NCBI RefSeq assembly: GCF_025698965.1
Contig: NZ_JAILWL010000007.1
Location: 1 to 35,476 of the forward strand
Length of the DNA: 35,476 nucleotides
Reading direction: 5' to 3'
Origin: Roseibium sp.
Lineage (GTDB): Bacteria > Pseudomonadota > Alphaproteobacteria > Rhizobiales > Stappiaceae
The stretch's first letter is position 1, and every line of letters begins with the position of its first letter. Positions 1 to 24,968 of this stretch are shown here, in pieces. A model generated the notes under the pieces. The model saw nothing but the letters and a program-made list of their open reading frames with translations. It did not search any database and was not told the DNA's origin. The position numbers and the translations under genes were made by a program.

Positions 1-2337
1 GAAGAGGCCTTTATCGAACAAGCCAAACTGGTCCGTCGATACGGTGCTGCGGTTGTCATCATGGCATTCGACGAAAGCGGGCAGGCGGATACGTTCGAGC
101 GGAAAACCGAAATCTGTGCCCGCTCCTATAAGGTGCTGACGGAAAAAGTCGGGTTTCCGCCCGAAGACATCATTTTCGATCCGAACATCTTTGCGGTCGC
201 AACCGGCATTGAAGAACACAACAATTATGGCGTCGATTTCATCGAAGCCACAGGCTGGATCCGCGAGAACCTGCCTCATGCCCACGTGTCTGGTGGTGTG
301 TCGAACCTTTCTTTCTCTTTCCGTGGCAATGAGGCCGTGCGTGAGGCGATGCACTCCGTATTCCTCTATCACGCCATTCAGCGTGGAATGGACATGGGCA
401 TCGTCAACGCCGGTCAATTGGCGGTATACAACGATCTTGACGAAGAATTGCGGGAACTTTGCATTGATGTTGTCCTGAATCGGCGGGATGATGCGACGGA
501 TCGTATGCTGGAAGCTGCTGAACGCTGGAAAGGCGAGGGCGGCAAGAAACGGGAAGCCGATCTCACCTGGCGCACCTGGGGTGTTGCCAAGCGGATAGAG
601 CATGCATTGGTTCACGGAATTTCCGATTTCGTGGAAGAAGACACTGAGGAGGCCCGCAAGGCCTTTGACCGTCCGCTACACGTGATCGAAGGGCCGTTAA
701 TGGACGGCATGAACGTGGTCGGAGACCTGTTCGGCTCGGGACAGATGTTCCTGCCGCAAGTGGTTAAATCTGCCCGGGTGATGAAAAAAGCCGTCGCCTA
801 TCTGATGCCCTTCATGGAGAAGGAAAAACAGGAGCTGGGACTCACCGGCCATTCATCCGCCGGCAAGATCCTGATGGCAACGGTGAAAGGTGATGTGCAT
901 GACATCGGCAAGAATATCGTCGGCGTCGTTCTCCAGTGCAACAACTTCGAGGTGATCGATCTCGGGGTTATGGTTCCGGCTGCCAAAATTCTTGAAACGG
1001 CCAAGCAGGAAAAGGTCGACATGATCGGGTTGAGTGGCCTGATCACGCCGTCCCTGGACGAAATGTGCCACGTGGCTGCGGAACTGGAACGCGAGGAGAT
1101 GAACGTGCCGTTGCTGATCGGTGGTGCAACAACCTCCAAGATCCATACAGCGGTGAAGATCCACCCGAATTACGAACGTGGCCAGGCGATTTATGTGACC
1201 GACGCCGGACGGGCTGTCGGTGTTGCCTCCAAGCTGATGAGCGAAGGAGGGCGGGATCCTTATTACGCGCAGGTGCGCAGCGAATATGCCGATGTTGCTG
1301 AAAAGCATGCCGCCGGTCGGGGTACGCAGCAACGAACGCCGATCGCTGCTGCCAGGGATAACGCCTTCAAGTCTGATTTTATCGGAAAGCCACCGGTCGC
1401 TCCCAGGAAACCGGGAACGACGGTGTTTGAAGATTTCCCGCTCGAAGAGCTCGTACCGGTAATTGACTGGACGCCGTTTTTCGCGACCTGGGAAATCAAG
1501 GGTCGTTATCCGGCGGTGTTGACCGACAATCGTTATGGTCCTGCGGCAAAGGCGCTTTATGACGACGCTCGTCGGATGCTGGACGAGATTGTCGAGAAGA
1601 AGCTCTTGACTGCGAAGGGCGTGGCAAATCTTTGGCCGGCCAATGCGGTTGGAGATGACGTTCGACTGTTCACCGACGAAAGCCGGACTGAAACACTCGG
1701 CACTTTTCATACTTTGCGCCAACAGATGGCAAGAACGGCTGGCGGACGCGCCAATGTGGCGCTCAGCGATTTCGTCGCGCCGCTGGAGAGCGGCATCAAT
1801 GATTGGATAGGGGGCTTTGCGGTGACGGCAGGTCATGGAGAAGACGATCTGGCTGCTCGCTATGCCCGTGAAGGAGACGACTACAACAAGATCCTCTCAC
1901 AGGCGCTTGCCGACCGTCTGGCGGAAGCATTCGCCGAGAAGCTCCACGAGATCGTCCGGAAGGATCTCTGGGGGTATGCAGCGGACGAGACTCTCTCCAT
2001 CGATGATATCATCGGTGAAAAGTATCAGGGGATCCGCCCGGCAGCTGGCTATCCGGCACAACCGGATCACACTGAAAAGGATACGCTTTTCAAGCTGCTC
2101 GACGCTGAACGATTGACAGGTATACAGCTAACCGAAAGCCGGGCGATGATGCCGGGGTCTTCAGTTTCTGGGCTGTATTTCGGTCATGCGGATAGTCACT
2201 ATTTTGGTGTCGGCAAGATTGAGAGGGATCAGGTGGAGGATTATGCCGCCAGAAAGGGCTGGGACATTGCCTATGCCGAGCGCTGGCTTGCTCCAATCCT
2301 GAATTATGATGCAGCGCGCATGGTTGCTGCGGAGTAA
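1..2337 (+). CDS. metH: Cobalamin-dependent methionine synthase MetH, 3' part (5' end outside window)
   Basis: This enzyme transfers a methyl group from 5-methyltetrahydrofolate through cobalamin to homocysteine, giving methionine in the cytoplasm. The reading frame is open from base 1, so the listed ATG at 61 is internal; the homocysteine-binding domain and part of the pterin-binding domain lie outside the window. Visible in order are the end of the pterin barrel ([18 protein letters not shown]), the four-helix cap, the B12-binding Rossmann domain with the DVHDIGKNI motif whose His ligates cobalt (near base 898), and the C-terminal AdoMet-binding reactivation domain ([15 protein letters not shown]). 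The C-terminal [13 protein letters not shown] block is typical of the full-length enzyme. No frameshift is seen. A strong terminator follows about 50 bases after the stop. Identification is very secure. Confidence 0.97.
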
Positions 2338-2384
2338 GTCACTGCCGGTCGCGCACTGCGATCAGGTCTTCTGGAACAGTTACA

Positions 2385-2416
2385 GCCTTCGCCGGGAACC
2401 CGGCGGAGGCTTTTTG
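2385..2416 (+). terminator. Rho-independent terminator of metH
   Basis: A 12-bp GC-rich stem (GCCTTCGCCGGG with CCCGGCGGAGGC, one G-U pair) is followed directly by a run of T. It lies about 50 bases past the metH stop. Confidence 0.9.
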
Positions 2417-2469
2417 TTTTGGGGTCAAATTAATTGACGTTGGGAAAGCAAAGGAAAAATAGCAAAATA

Positions 2470-2506
2470 TGCACAAGGTGCACTCTTGAAAAGTGCACAA
2501 AGTGCG
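2470..2506. promoter_or_regulatory. Twin palindromic operators GCAC-AAR-GTGC
   Basis: Two near-identical dyads are seen: TGCAC-AAG-GTGCA at 2470-2482 and GCAC-AAA-GTGC at 2495-2505, with centres 24 bp apart. The second sits inside the spacer of the -35/-10 pair described next. That geometry is typical of a repressor operator. The cognate regulator is not identifiable from the window. Confidence 0.5.
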
Positions 2507-2513
2507 CTAACAT
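2486..2513 (+). promoter_or_regulatory. Sigma-70-like promoter upstream of a 47-aa ORF
   Basis: TTGAAA (2486-2491) and TAACAT (2508-2513) are separated by 16 bp. Initiation would be expected near 2520, about 45 bases before an ATG with a good Shine-Dalgarno sequence. It is overlapped by the twin dyads. Confidence 0.45.
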
Positions 2514-2566
2514 TGATCTTAAGAAGTTGCTGCGTTTCAGATTGTGGGCGACTGAAGGAGAACAAG

Positions 2567-2710
2567 ATGAATGTGCACACGGCCAAATTGATATTGGTGA
2601 AGCATCGCCAGGACTACAATCGGGATCGCCTACCATGGTTGCCCGCCCGGCTGTACAGGTCCTGGAAAGAAGCATCACCCAACGTTCAGGAGCCTCCAAA
2701 AGGATCCTGA
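2567..2710 (+). CDS. Small hypothetical protein (47 aa)
   Basis: This is a possible small gene with no recognisable family. The ATG at 2567 is preceded by GAAGGAG at a good distance, which is why I prefer it over the ATG at 2486 in the same frame, which lies within the promoter. The product is basic and Arg/Lys/Trp-containing (DYNRDRLPWLPARLYRSWKE) with no signal peptide or membrane segment. Its gene lies between a promoter with twin operators and an intrinsic terminator at about 2801, so a complete, regulated transcription unit is drawn around it. An overlapping frame (2434-2730) is also open, so the transcript could instead be non-coding. Coding status is uncertain. Confidence 0.35.
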   Translation: MNVHTAKLILVKHRQDYNRDRLPWLPARLYRSWKEASPNVQEPPKGS

Positions 2711-2800
2711 TGCAGGGCCAAACCCGATAAGGCCCCAAAAGCCATAAAAATATGACCCCAAATAACGTTTGTGATACCCAGACGTTGACCCACCTCCTGG

Positions 2801-2826
2801 AAACCCGGCTCCGGCCGGGTTTTTTG
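2801..2826 (+). terminator. Rho-independent terminator after the 47-aa ORF
   Basis: AACCCGGC and GCCGGGTT form a short strong stem with a four-base loop, followed by six T. It ends the small transcription unit starting near 2520. The azoR stop on the other strand is about 80 bases further on, so this terminator belongs to the plus-strand unit. Confidence 0.8.
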
Positions 2827-2902: not shown

Positions 2903-3523
2903 TCAGGCCGGAGTCAGGTCGCGGCCGACGAGTGAGACGATTTGTGCACGGGCGGCAGCAAGACCAGCCTGAGCTGCTTCTTGTCCCAAGGCGAGGCCCT
3001 TGGCGTGGATGAATTCAATATCGGTTATACCGAGATGGCCAAGCGCCAATTCAAGATAACCGGTTTCGAAGTCCATGGAGGTACCGAGAAAATCTCCACC
3101 TTGGGCAATTACGATGATCGCTCGAATTCCGGTCAGAAGTCCCTTTGGTCCTTCGTTGGTGAAACGGAAGGTCTCGCCGGCACGGGTCACATGATCGATC
3201 CATGATTTTAGCGTGGAGGGGATCGTAAAATTGTACATTGGCGCGCCAACCAACAGCACATCGGTCTCTCTGAGTTCCGCAATCAATTCGTCTGAAATCG
3301 CAAGGCCTTCTATTTTTGTTGCAGAGGTGACTGTGGCGGGAGCCGAAAAGGACAGAAAAGTGGTCTTATCCAGATGCGGGATCGGGTCTTTGCTCAGATC
3401 CCGCTTGATGTGCCGCATGGCAGAGTGCTGCGCCAAAAGCCTGTGCGCGACTTCGTCGGCGAGCTTTGAAGTCTGAGACTCCGCACCATGAATGCCGGAG
3501 TTTATCTGCAAGAGAGTTTTCAT
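2903..3523 (-). CDS. azoR: FMN-dependent NADH:quinone/azo oxidoreductase AzoR (206 aa)
   Basis: This is a cytoplasmic flavodoxin-fold reductase that uses NAD(P)H and FMN for two-electron reduction of quinones and azo compounds. The protein starts MKTLLQINSG, the usual first beta strand. The VGAPMYNFTIPSTLKSWIDHVTRAGETF block is the conserved FMN and dimer region of the AzoR/AcpD family, and AQGGDF is the second FMN-contacting loop. At 206 aa the length is normal. The ORF track starts upstream at 3601, but the ATG at 3523 is preceded by AGGACGAAAG and matches the family N-terminus. It is divergent from a LysR gene with a 146-bp shared spacer, so control by that regulator and induction by quinone-like compounds are likely. 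The specific in vivo substrate cannot be read from sequence. Confidence 0.92.
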   Translation of the reverse strand: MKTLLQINSGIHGAESQTSKLADEVAHRLLAQHSAMRHIKRDLSKDPIPHLDKTTFLSFSAPATVTSATKIEGLAISDELIAELRETDVLLVGAPMYNFTIPSTLKSWIDHVTRAGETFRFTNEGPKGLLTGIRAIIVIAQGGDFLGTSMDFETGYLELALGHLGITDIEFIHAKGLALGQEAAQAGLAAARAQIVSLVGRDLTPA

Positions 3524-16215: not shown

Positions 16216-17106
16216 ATGTTGCTCGATAACATCTCCCTGTTTCTGCTTATCGTTGAAAAGGGCAGTCTCGTGGCGGCCGGCAGAGAAGTCGGCTTGTCAC
16301 CGACGACCGTGTCGGAACGGCTGGCGGCGCTCGAAAGTCACTATGGTGTGGTTCTTCTCAACCGTACGACACGGTCGATCAGCTTGACAGAGGAAGGTCG
16401 AACTCTTGTTGAGGGAGCCAAGCAGGTTCTGGGAGAGGTTGAGGATCTGGAGACACGGATCCGTTTCGGTGCGCAAAGGCTCTCCGGACCGATCCGGATC
16501 AGCACACCAAAGGATCTCGGCCGTACAATTGTTTCTGAAGCAATGGCACGTTTTCTGGCAGAGCATCCCTCCATCTCGATCGATCTGCACCTTTCGGACG
16601 GCTATGTCGACATCGTCGGTATGGGGATTGATCTGGCCGTTCGTTTCGGGCCGATCAGCGACAGCAGTCTCAGGGTCAAGCAACTGCCTTCCAGACGGCG
16701 GATCTTGTGCGCGGCGCCAAGCTATCTTGAACTGCACGGCGTGCCGAGAACGCCGGCGGACCTGAAAGACCACAATTGTCTGGTGATGCGTTTCGGACAA
16801 AACATCGACAATGTCTGGCGCTTCGGGGCGACGGCGGCGAAACAGATCGTCACGGTAAGAGGCAACCTCATTGCCAACGATGGTGCATTGGTGCGCCGTT
16901 GGGGCCTGGAGGGCAGGGGAATTCTTCTGAAGTCGGAATTTGATGTCGGCGACGATATTCGCACCGGGCGCCTGATCGAACTTCTCCCCGAGCACGCTTC
17001 ACCGCCGGTCCCTTTGCAACTCCTCTTCCCTCCAAGCCGCGCACAGCCAAGGCGGGTGGGTGCCTTCGCGGACTGTTTGGCAAAAGCGTTTCGGGATTTT
17101 GGATGA
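16216..17106 (+). CDS. LysR-family transcriptional regulator (296 aa), divergent from the ABM-ADH operon
   Basis: The winged helix-turn-helix covers about residues 1-60 (NISLFLLIVEKGSLVAAGREVGLSPTTVSERLAALESHYGVVLLNRTTRSISLTEEG). The effector domain (LSGPIRISTPKDLGRTIV, IDLHLSDGYVDIVGMGIDLAVRFGPISDSSL) belongs to the CrgA/DsdC-like group common in alphaproteobacteria. The start at 16216 matches the family N-terminus but has no clear ribosome binding site, and the bases TATAAT overlap it. It probably controls the divergent ABM, dehydrogenase, peroxiredoxin-like and VOC genes in response to a quinone or aldehyde. The signal is inferred. Confidence 0.92.
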   Translation: MLLDNISLFLLIVEKGSLVAAGREVGLSPTTVSERLAALESHYGVVLLNRTTRSISLTEEGRTLVEGAKQVLGEVEDLETRIRFGAQRLSGPIRISTPKDLGRTIVSEAMARFLAEHPSISIDLHLSDGYVDIVGMGIDLAVRFGPISDSSLRVKQLPSRRRILCAAPSYLELHGVPRTPADLKDHNCLVMRFGQNIDNVWRFGATAAKQIVTVRGNLIANDGALVRRWGLEGRGILLKSEFDVGDDIRTGRLIELLPEHASPPVPLQLLFPPSRAQPRRVGAFADCLAKAFRDFG

Positions 17107-24545: not shown

Positions 24546-24581
24546 CCGCGTGCCCAAATTCGCACGTGCCCGAGGTCGTTC

Positions 24582-24599
24582 ATGGGGTGCCTTGTTTAA
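24582..24599 (+). CDS. Possible 5-codon leader peptide (MGCLV) in the decarboxylase leader
   Basis: ATG GGG TGC CTT GTT TAA is preceded by CGAGG at seven bases, a good Shine-Dalgarno arrangement. It lies just upstream of the nested stem. A translated short uORF could couple ribosome behaviour to folding of the leader, as short uORFs do in polyamine control elsewhere. Five codons can occur by chance, so confidence is low. Confidence 0.25.
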   Translation: MGCLV

Positions 24600-24968
24600 A
24601 GGACATCTCTTAAGGGGCCGCTGCCACATACACCGCCAAGGGGCGGGCAGCAGATCCGTACGGCTTAAAGCAACGACGTAAGAGGGCTTTTTTGGTCTCT
24701 GCCGGGGTATCCAACCTCCGGCGTCACTGAAGAGGCACTTGTTACATCCTTGCCCGACGTGCGGCTCGGTATTTCCGATCCAATCAACGGCATTTCCGAC
24801 GCGGGAAAGCGTTGCGCTGTTCGTCAGCTGCAATTGCCCAACCGTCGCTGCAGTCAACCCGGCCTCCGGTTCCATCCCGGGGGAGGCCCGGTGGGTATTG
24901 CAGCACCCTGCGACGTGAACCTGCAGCGCGCCTCATTGGCATAAGCGTGTATGCGGCCAGAATTGAGA

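Follow-up and report, generated by a model that had tools for sequence, protein, structure and literature searches.

The phage anti-CRISPR repressor Aca1 has an operator of the form GGCACACTGTGCC...GGCACAATGTGCC, a twin GCAC-NNN-GTGC (PMC9410881), and the core promoter of Aca genes contains an inverted repeat that, in several families, has a second beside it (PMC9410906). Among small Arg-rich alphaproteobacterial proteins, those with DUF1127 (the SDPs of Agrobacterium, YjiS and CcaF1) are tied to phosphate metabolism, restraining phosphate uptake through PhoR (PMC12501420), or to 3'-linked small RNAs (PMC10253847), the CcaF1–CcsR locus of Rhodobacter providing a precedent for a small RNA from a 3' untranslated region (UTR; PMC10253847).

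We analysed a 35,476-nucleotide stretch of Roseibium DNA (the window), in which the metH–azoR intergenic region carries twin GCAC-NNN-GTGC dyads in the promoter of a small open reading frame (small ORF A). As in Aca1 promoters, one repeat lies in the core promoter, with a second next to it as in several Aca families, and the best candidate regulator of the dyad targets is also a small helix-turn-helix (HTH) protein, an XRE/HTH_3 protein whose gene precedes carB at another locus of the same genome (hereafter XRE). By sequence, Aca1 is the best PDB relative of XRE through a weak match (phmmer E 0.009–0.024 over Aca1 chains), and the recognition helices SDRVMRYY (Aca1) and KKRMIQYY (XRE) have R-[VM]-[MI]-x-Y-Y in common. 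XRE differs from Aca1 in several respects: its gene sits on the chromosome next to carB as part of the core genome and is not co-operonic with the small ORF, it has many candidate targets, there is neither an acr gene nor a mobile-element operon, and its predicted half-site is GYGCAC rather than GGCAC. In NCBIfam the XRE HTH comes closest to MqsA-type antitoxins (TIGR03830, 1.1e-6), but its 28 bits fall far under the cut-off of 61.8, the CxxCG zinc domain is missing and no toxin partner was seen. The likeness to Aca1 suggests that a phage anti-CRISPR repressor and a core-genome repressor of the host have one operator code in common. Judged from sequence, the metH–azoR unit is, we think with fair confidence, one target of this small, chromosomal, autoregulated XRE repressor; the most likely wider reading is that the repressor controls phosphate-related genes and two small proteins.

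A small predicted transcription unit with twin dyads

The earlier note had read this region as a complete cassette of promoter, Shine–Dalgarno, ORF and terminator ending at position 2710; all four elements are present, but the terminator lies about 90 nt past that end. The features, in window coordinates, are as follows.

1–2337, plus strand: metH, the C-terminal part of methionine synthase truncated at the window edge, with Pfam Met_synt_B12, B12-binding and Pterin_bind
2384–2411, plus strand: intrinsic terminator of metH, a 12-pair stem followed by a T-run
2434–2455, plus strand: TGACGTnnGGAAA-like stretch 5' of dyad 1, kept in many relatives (for example, TGACGTAAGGAAAATAA)
2470–2482, no strand: dyad 1, TGCACAAGGTGCA, directly 5' of the -35
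2486–2513, plus strand: predicted sigma70-type promoter TTGAAA-16-TAACAT (-35 at 2486–2491, 16-bp spacer, -10 at 2508–2513)
2493–2507, no strand: dyad 2, the 15-bp GTGCACAAAGTGCGC, filling the -35/-10 spacer; matched by model R1 (below) at E 1.9e-6
2556–2560, plus strand: Shine–Dalgarno AGGAG
2567–2710, plus strand: small ORF A, 47 amino acids, MNVHTAKLILVKHRQDYNRDRLPWLPARLYRSWKEASPNVQEPPKGS (ATG at 2567, stop at 2708–2710), found in 44 of 87 genomes with pN/pS 0.28
2764–2786, plus strand: 3' UTR hairpin AACGTTTGTGATACCCAGACGTT, with a conserved CCC in its loop and two-sided changes in 6 of 8 pairs
2801–2825, plus strand: intrinsic terminator AAACCCGGCTCCGGCCGGGTTTTTT (stem 2801–2822, T-run to 2825)
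2903–3523, minus strand: azoR-type flavodoxin-fold reductase (Pfam Flavodoxin_2), convergent and outside the unit

Because metH has its own terminator at 2384–2411, the small-ORF unit is separate from it. By consensus alone the predicted promoter is at chance level (1 found versus 1.1 expected); its conservation supports it, with dyad 2 lying between a -35 (CTTG[AT]AA) and a -10 (TA....T) in nearly every relative. The TGACGTnnGGAAA-like stretch upstream could be an activator site or an UP element.

The pairing of the dyads, 24 bp apart with the core of dyad 2 (TGCACAAAGTGCG) at 2494–2506, is not a chance expectation in the intergenic stretch: twin GCACNNNGTGC arose in 0 of 5,000 shuffles of it, and twins within 60 bp in 5 of 1,000 dinucleotide shuffles of the whole window. 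In total, GCACNNNGTGC occurs three times in the window versus a mean of 0.8 in such shuffles; the third copy lies at 16734, and chance alone would give about one such site. A dyad is present upstream in 43 of the 44 genomes with small ORF A, at loci chosen by protein similarity and not by the dyad. The regulated unit with twin operators that the earlier note proposed is thereby supported, as is the conservation of dyads and ORF by which it suggested judging the locus. Dyad 2 is the better conserved of the two and the sole dyad in most small ORF A paralogs; roughly half the distinct promoters also have dyad 1, 24 bp upstream of it (22 or 25 bp in a few). Across relatives' promoters the half-sites GYGCAC/GTGCRC are fixed, an invariance that is partly by construction because the aligned rows were selected for having a dyad, and the three central bases are free to vary. 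Of the GCAC-AAR-GTGC operator first described, the half-sites therefore stand and the AAR spacer is local only. Together, spacing and conservation support the prediction that the twin dyads are operators. One relative (G068; L115, upstream of the small ORF, and L372) carries twin operators that are near-perfect palindromes, GCGCACACTGTGCGC and GCGCACAGTGTGCGC, 22 bp apart.

Simple pattern searches carried little information. The strict twin pattern gave 120/140 in the window's own genome versus 90/94 in the control, drowned in chance matches, and plain TGCACNNNGTGC counts were enriched only 2–3 fold, alone uninformative. Scanning a genome collection with the full promoter returned mostly small ORF A in Roseibium, together with scattered matches in unrelated bacteria. 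No report turned up in literature searches for operators of Roseibium or for the dyad spelled with Ns.

Other dyad sites and a candidate regulator

The earlier note called the unit an orphan and suggested a genome-wide search for the dyad as a route to its regulator. For such a search we used model R1, a sequence-only model of the -35/dyad 2/-10 segment built solely from small ORF A promoters, which was run over the whole family and also over seven genomes, after which gene contexts were read. The dyad recurs 50–62 bp upstream of small ORF B in 21 genomes; this ORF of 73–78 amino acids (MAHSLFEPAP...) lies between trpB and trpA (L238 1501–1800, L334, L358 7730–7975) and has no match in Pfam or NCBIfam. 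It also recurs at -75 to -102 before a NUDIX hydrolase gene followed by one or more PHO4-family (PiT) phosphate permeases (21 genomes), at -99 before a Na/Pi cotransporter with a PhoU domain (4 genomes, with a degenerate fifth in G014), at about -200 before a DUF1194 gene (6 genomes, 2 genera) and, at matching position, before small ORF A paralogs. Further sites lie at a ParA-like gene divergent from rnd (in G018, ppx and ppk are just past rnd), before the XRE gene and, in degenerate form in the single genome G041, before a CYTH-CHAD gene. The window's own genome has sites at small ORF A (C646), NUDIX-PiT (C70), small ORF B (C665), Na/Pi (C441), XRE (C57), ParA/rnd (C41) and DUF1194 (C124). 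In this genome a glycine-rich cold-shock-domain gene likewise has a dyad, 86 bp upstream of it (L189 1501; L346), and G034 has one at a similar place.

Single sites score modestly: among the independent targets in the window's own genome, NUDIX reaches E 0.013 and the others 0.4–1. Overall, single-site scores span E 0.01–1; the case for a regulon rests on conserved position, and the counts for NUDIX, small ORF B and similar loci are biased since those loci were picked for scoring. Read in this way, the sites support a family-wide regulon defined by the dyad, with phosphate and polyphosphate as its theme and with outliers: a theme of phosphate alone does not cover the neighbours trp, DUF1194, ParA/rnd and cold-shock. 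With such a regulon and a regulator that can be named as a candidate, the description of the unit as an orphan no longer applies. Two candidates were rejected. A SorC-family regulator beside the DUF1194 site was set aside as the binder, repeated AATTTTTGCC motifs there suiting SorC better by eye; a site in G038 was dropped as a polyphosphate-gene target, its neighbour being a saccharopine dehydrogenase gene by Pfam.

The XRE gene reached by R1 (G000:C57:13071-13346) encodes 92 amino acids, matches PF01381 HTH_3 at 29.5 bits, above the curated cut-off of 23, and is found in 83 of 87 family genomes, in single copy in most. Nearly all Roseibium have AGCACATTGTGCAC or a close variant ahead of the gene, some 117 bp from the start codon. 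A dyad occurs within 400 bp upstream of XRE in 36 of 51 genomes examined and is absent in most other genera, against a background of 7 in 242 400-bp pieces, some of which came from loci picked for a dyad. All four genomes without XRE (G039, G056, G058 and G060) are also without small ORF A; R1 found nothing credible in them, with no operator at E<0.6 (at most a single one, at E 0.64). Within the genus, an operator at E<=0.1 is present in 42 of 43 genomes with XRE and in 0 of 2 without, for which our own hypergeometric estimate, ignoring phylogeny, is 0.003. In G050, XRE is kept and the operators are absent. XRE has no upstream dyad in genera g16, g17 and g19 and in most of g18, so its autoregulation is not universal; in g16 and g17, dyads are nonetheless present on small ORF A. 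In one further genome (G083; L272 / L362 near 6391), XRE is divergent from another small ORF, the third (MLNEMILYRSALHFEKVDVHRFAQF...), which lies under twin dyads and may be distantly related to small ORF A. The phage and plasmid homologs of XRE that were found are all distant; one from a phage, 43% identical, has a different recognition helix (STGSVELY), and no GCAC-NNN-GTGC dyad occurs in the 3.2 kb around it. Text searches of the open literature found no report on this XRE regulator.

The genera with operators on small ORF A and no dyad upstream of XRE fit an account in which the regulon is the same and another protein, such as a ribbon-helix-helix protein, is the binder. The plasmid CopG operator has a TGCA-N5-TGCA layout, with which the dyad spacing agrees. 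We nevertheless judge this unlikely: the promoter of the XRE gene itself has a dyad at a constant position, XRE is missing where operators are missing, among solved structures it is closest to a known GCAC-NNN-GTGC binder, and inspection of the sites revealed no neighbouring ribbon-helix-helix gene.

With XRE as the candidate repressor, a dimer would bind the 15-bp palindrome GYGCAC-NNN-GTGCRC. At the small ORF A promoter, where dyad 2 takes up the -35/-10 spacer and dyad 1 lies against the -35, bound XRE would be expected to block RNA polymerase and thus repress. It would also bind upstream of its own gene, PiT, Na/Pi, NUDIX, small ORF B and sometimes CYTH-CHAD; activation is conceivable at NUDIX, because the dyad there precedes the probable -35. 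Release of XRE by a signal, which might be phosphate or polyphosphate status, would allow the 47-residue Arg-rich protein to be made; this protein would probably act as a small adaptor binding a protein or an RNA.

The 47-residue protein and its 3' UTR

The earlier note left three readings of the unit side by side: a small protein, a regulatory RNA or a relic of a mobile element. Small ORF A is a real conserved gene under strong purifying selection. Of the family's 87 genomes, 44 contain relatives by six-frame search, and pN is below pS in 528 of 528 pairs with a mean ratio of 0.28 (mean pS 0.67, mean pN 0.19; 33 sequences, first 37 codons); variable columns number 23, 17 and 35 by codon position. 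The small-protein reading is thus supported. A class-wide search matched small ORF A in 3 of 385 sampled genomes, the window's own among the three, so it is essentially a family-level innovation; named same-genus records with a match to its promoter belong to Roseibium/Labrenzia/Stappia. It sits 3' of metH in nearly all Roseibium, and some genomes have paralogs elsewhere. Its relatives share a motif of approximately M[NT]V..A[RK]..LV.HRQDYNRDRL.WLP.RLYRS..EA, and neither Pfam nor NCBIfam has a matching family. AlphaFold2 gave the 47-mer two helices (about 3–20 and 27–36) at pLDDT 62–64, too weak for a fold search. The resemblance to DUF1127 proteins lies in small size and Arg-richness; none of 26 small ORF A members has a DUF1127 match in Pfam or NCBIfam, and their motif is HRQDYNRDRLPWLPxRLYRS. 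DUF1127 is thus a different family and may serve as a functional analogy.

Downstream of the ORF, the helix at 2764–2786 is 96% paired in 17 sequences, and the two-sided changes in 6 of its 8 pairs among these 17 relatives were equalled in 0 of 500 shuffles, slid controls scoring far lower. This hairpin, set among A-rich linkers and followed by a strong terminator, recalls the ccaF1–CcsR loci in its layout (PMC10253847), so a 3'-derived RNA is possible. Taken further, the unit might act mainly as an RNA, with the small ORF a passenger or dual-function and the 3' UTR processed into a trans-acting small RNA, for which the covarying hairpin, its CCC-bearing loop, the A-rich linkers and the strong terminator at the end would speak. 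We find that improbable given the strong purifying selection on the protein, its retention in other genera though their 3' UTR differs and the lack of an Rfam match (none at gathering score within 2430–2840). The covarying hairpin leaves a regulatory-RNA role conceivable. That the unit is a mobile-element or prophage relic carrying its own repressor's operators, as twin operators like those of phage repressors and the Aca1-like XRE might suggest, is very hard to credit when the locus stays 3' of metH in nearly all Roseibium, its ORF is under purifying selection, its promoters are vertically conserved, and XRE is a near-universal core gene by carB whose phage and plasmid homologs are distant only.

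Under the reading with XRE as repressor, an unannotated intergenic gene leads to a regulatory circuit with a candidate regulator, a 15-bp predicted operator and about eight candidate target classes. It brings in two uncharacterized small protein families (small ORFs A and B) and links phosphate-uptake and polyphosphate-type genes of a widespread marine group to the candidate XRE regulator. More speculatively, and with considerable doubt on our part, this Stappiaceae core XRE, a relative of Aca1 that shares its operator code, might be a second phosphate/polyphosphate regulator besides PhoB, acting partly via the two small proteins, one of which would also yield a 3' UTR small RNA. Elsewhere in the window, Rfam matches the alphaproteobacterial small RNA ar45 (24552–24691), directly followed by a speF leader (24700–24848).
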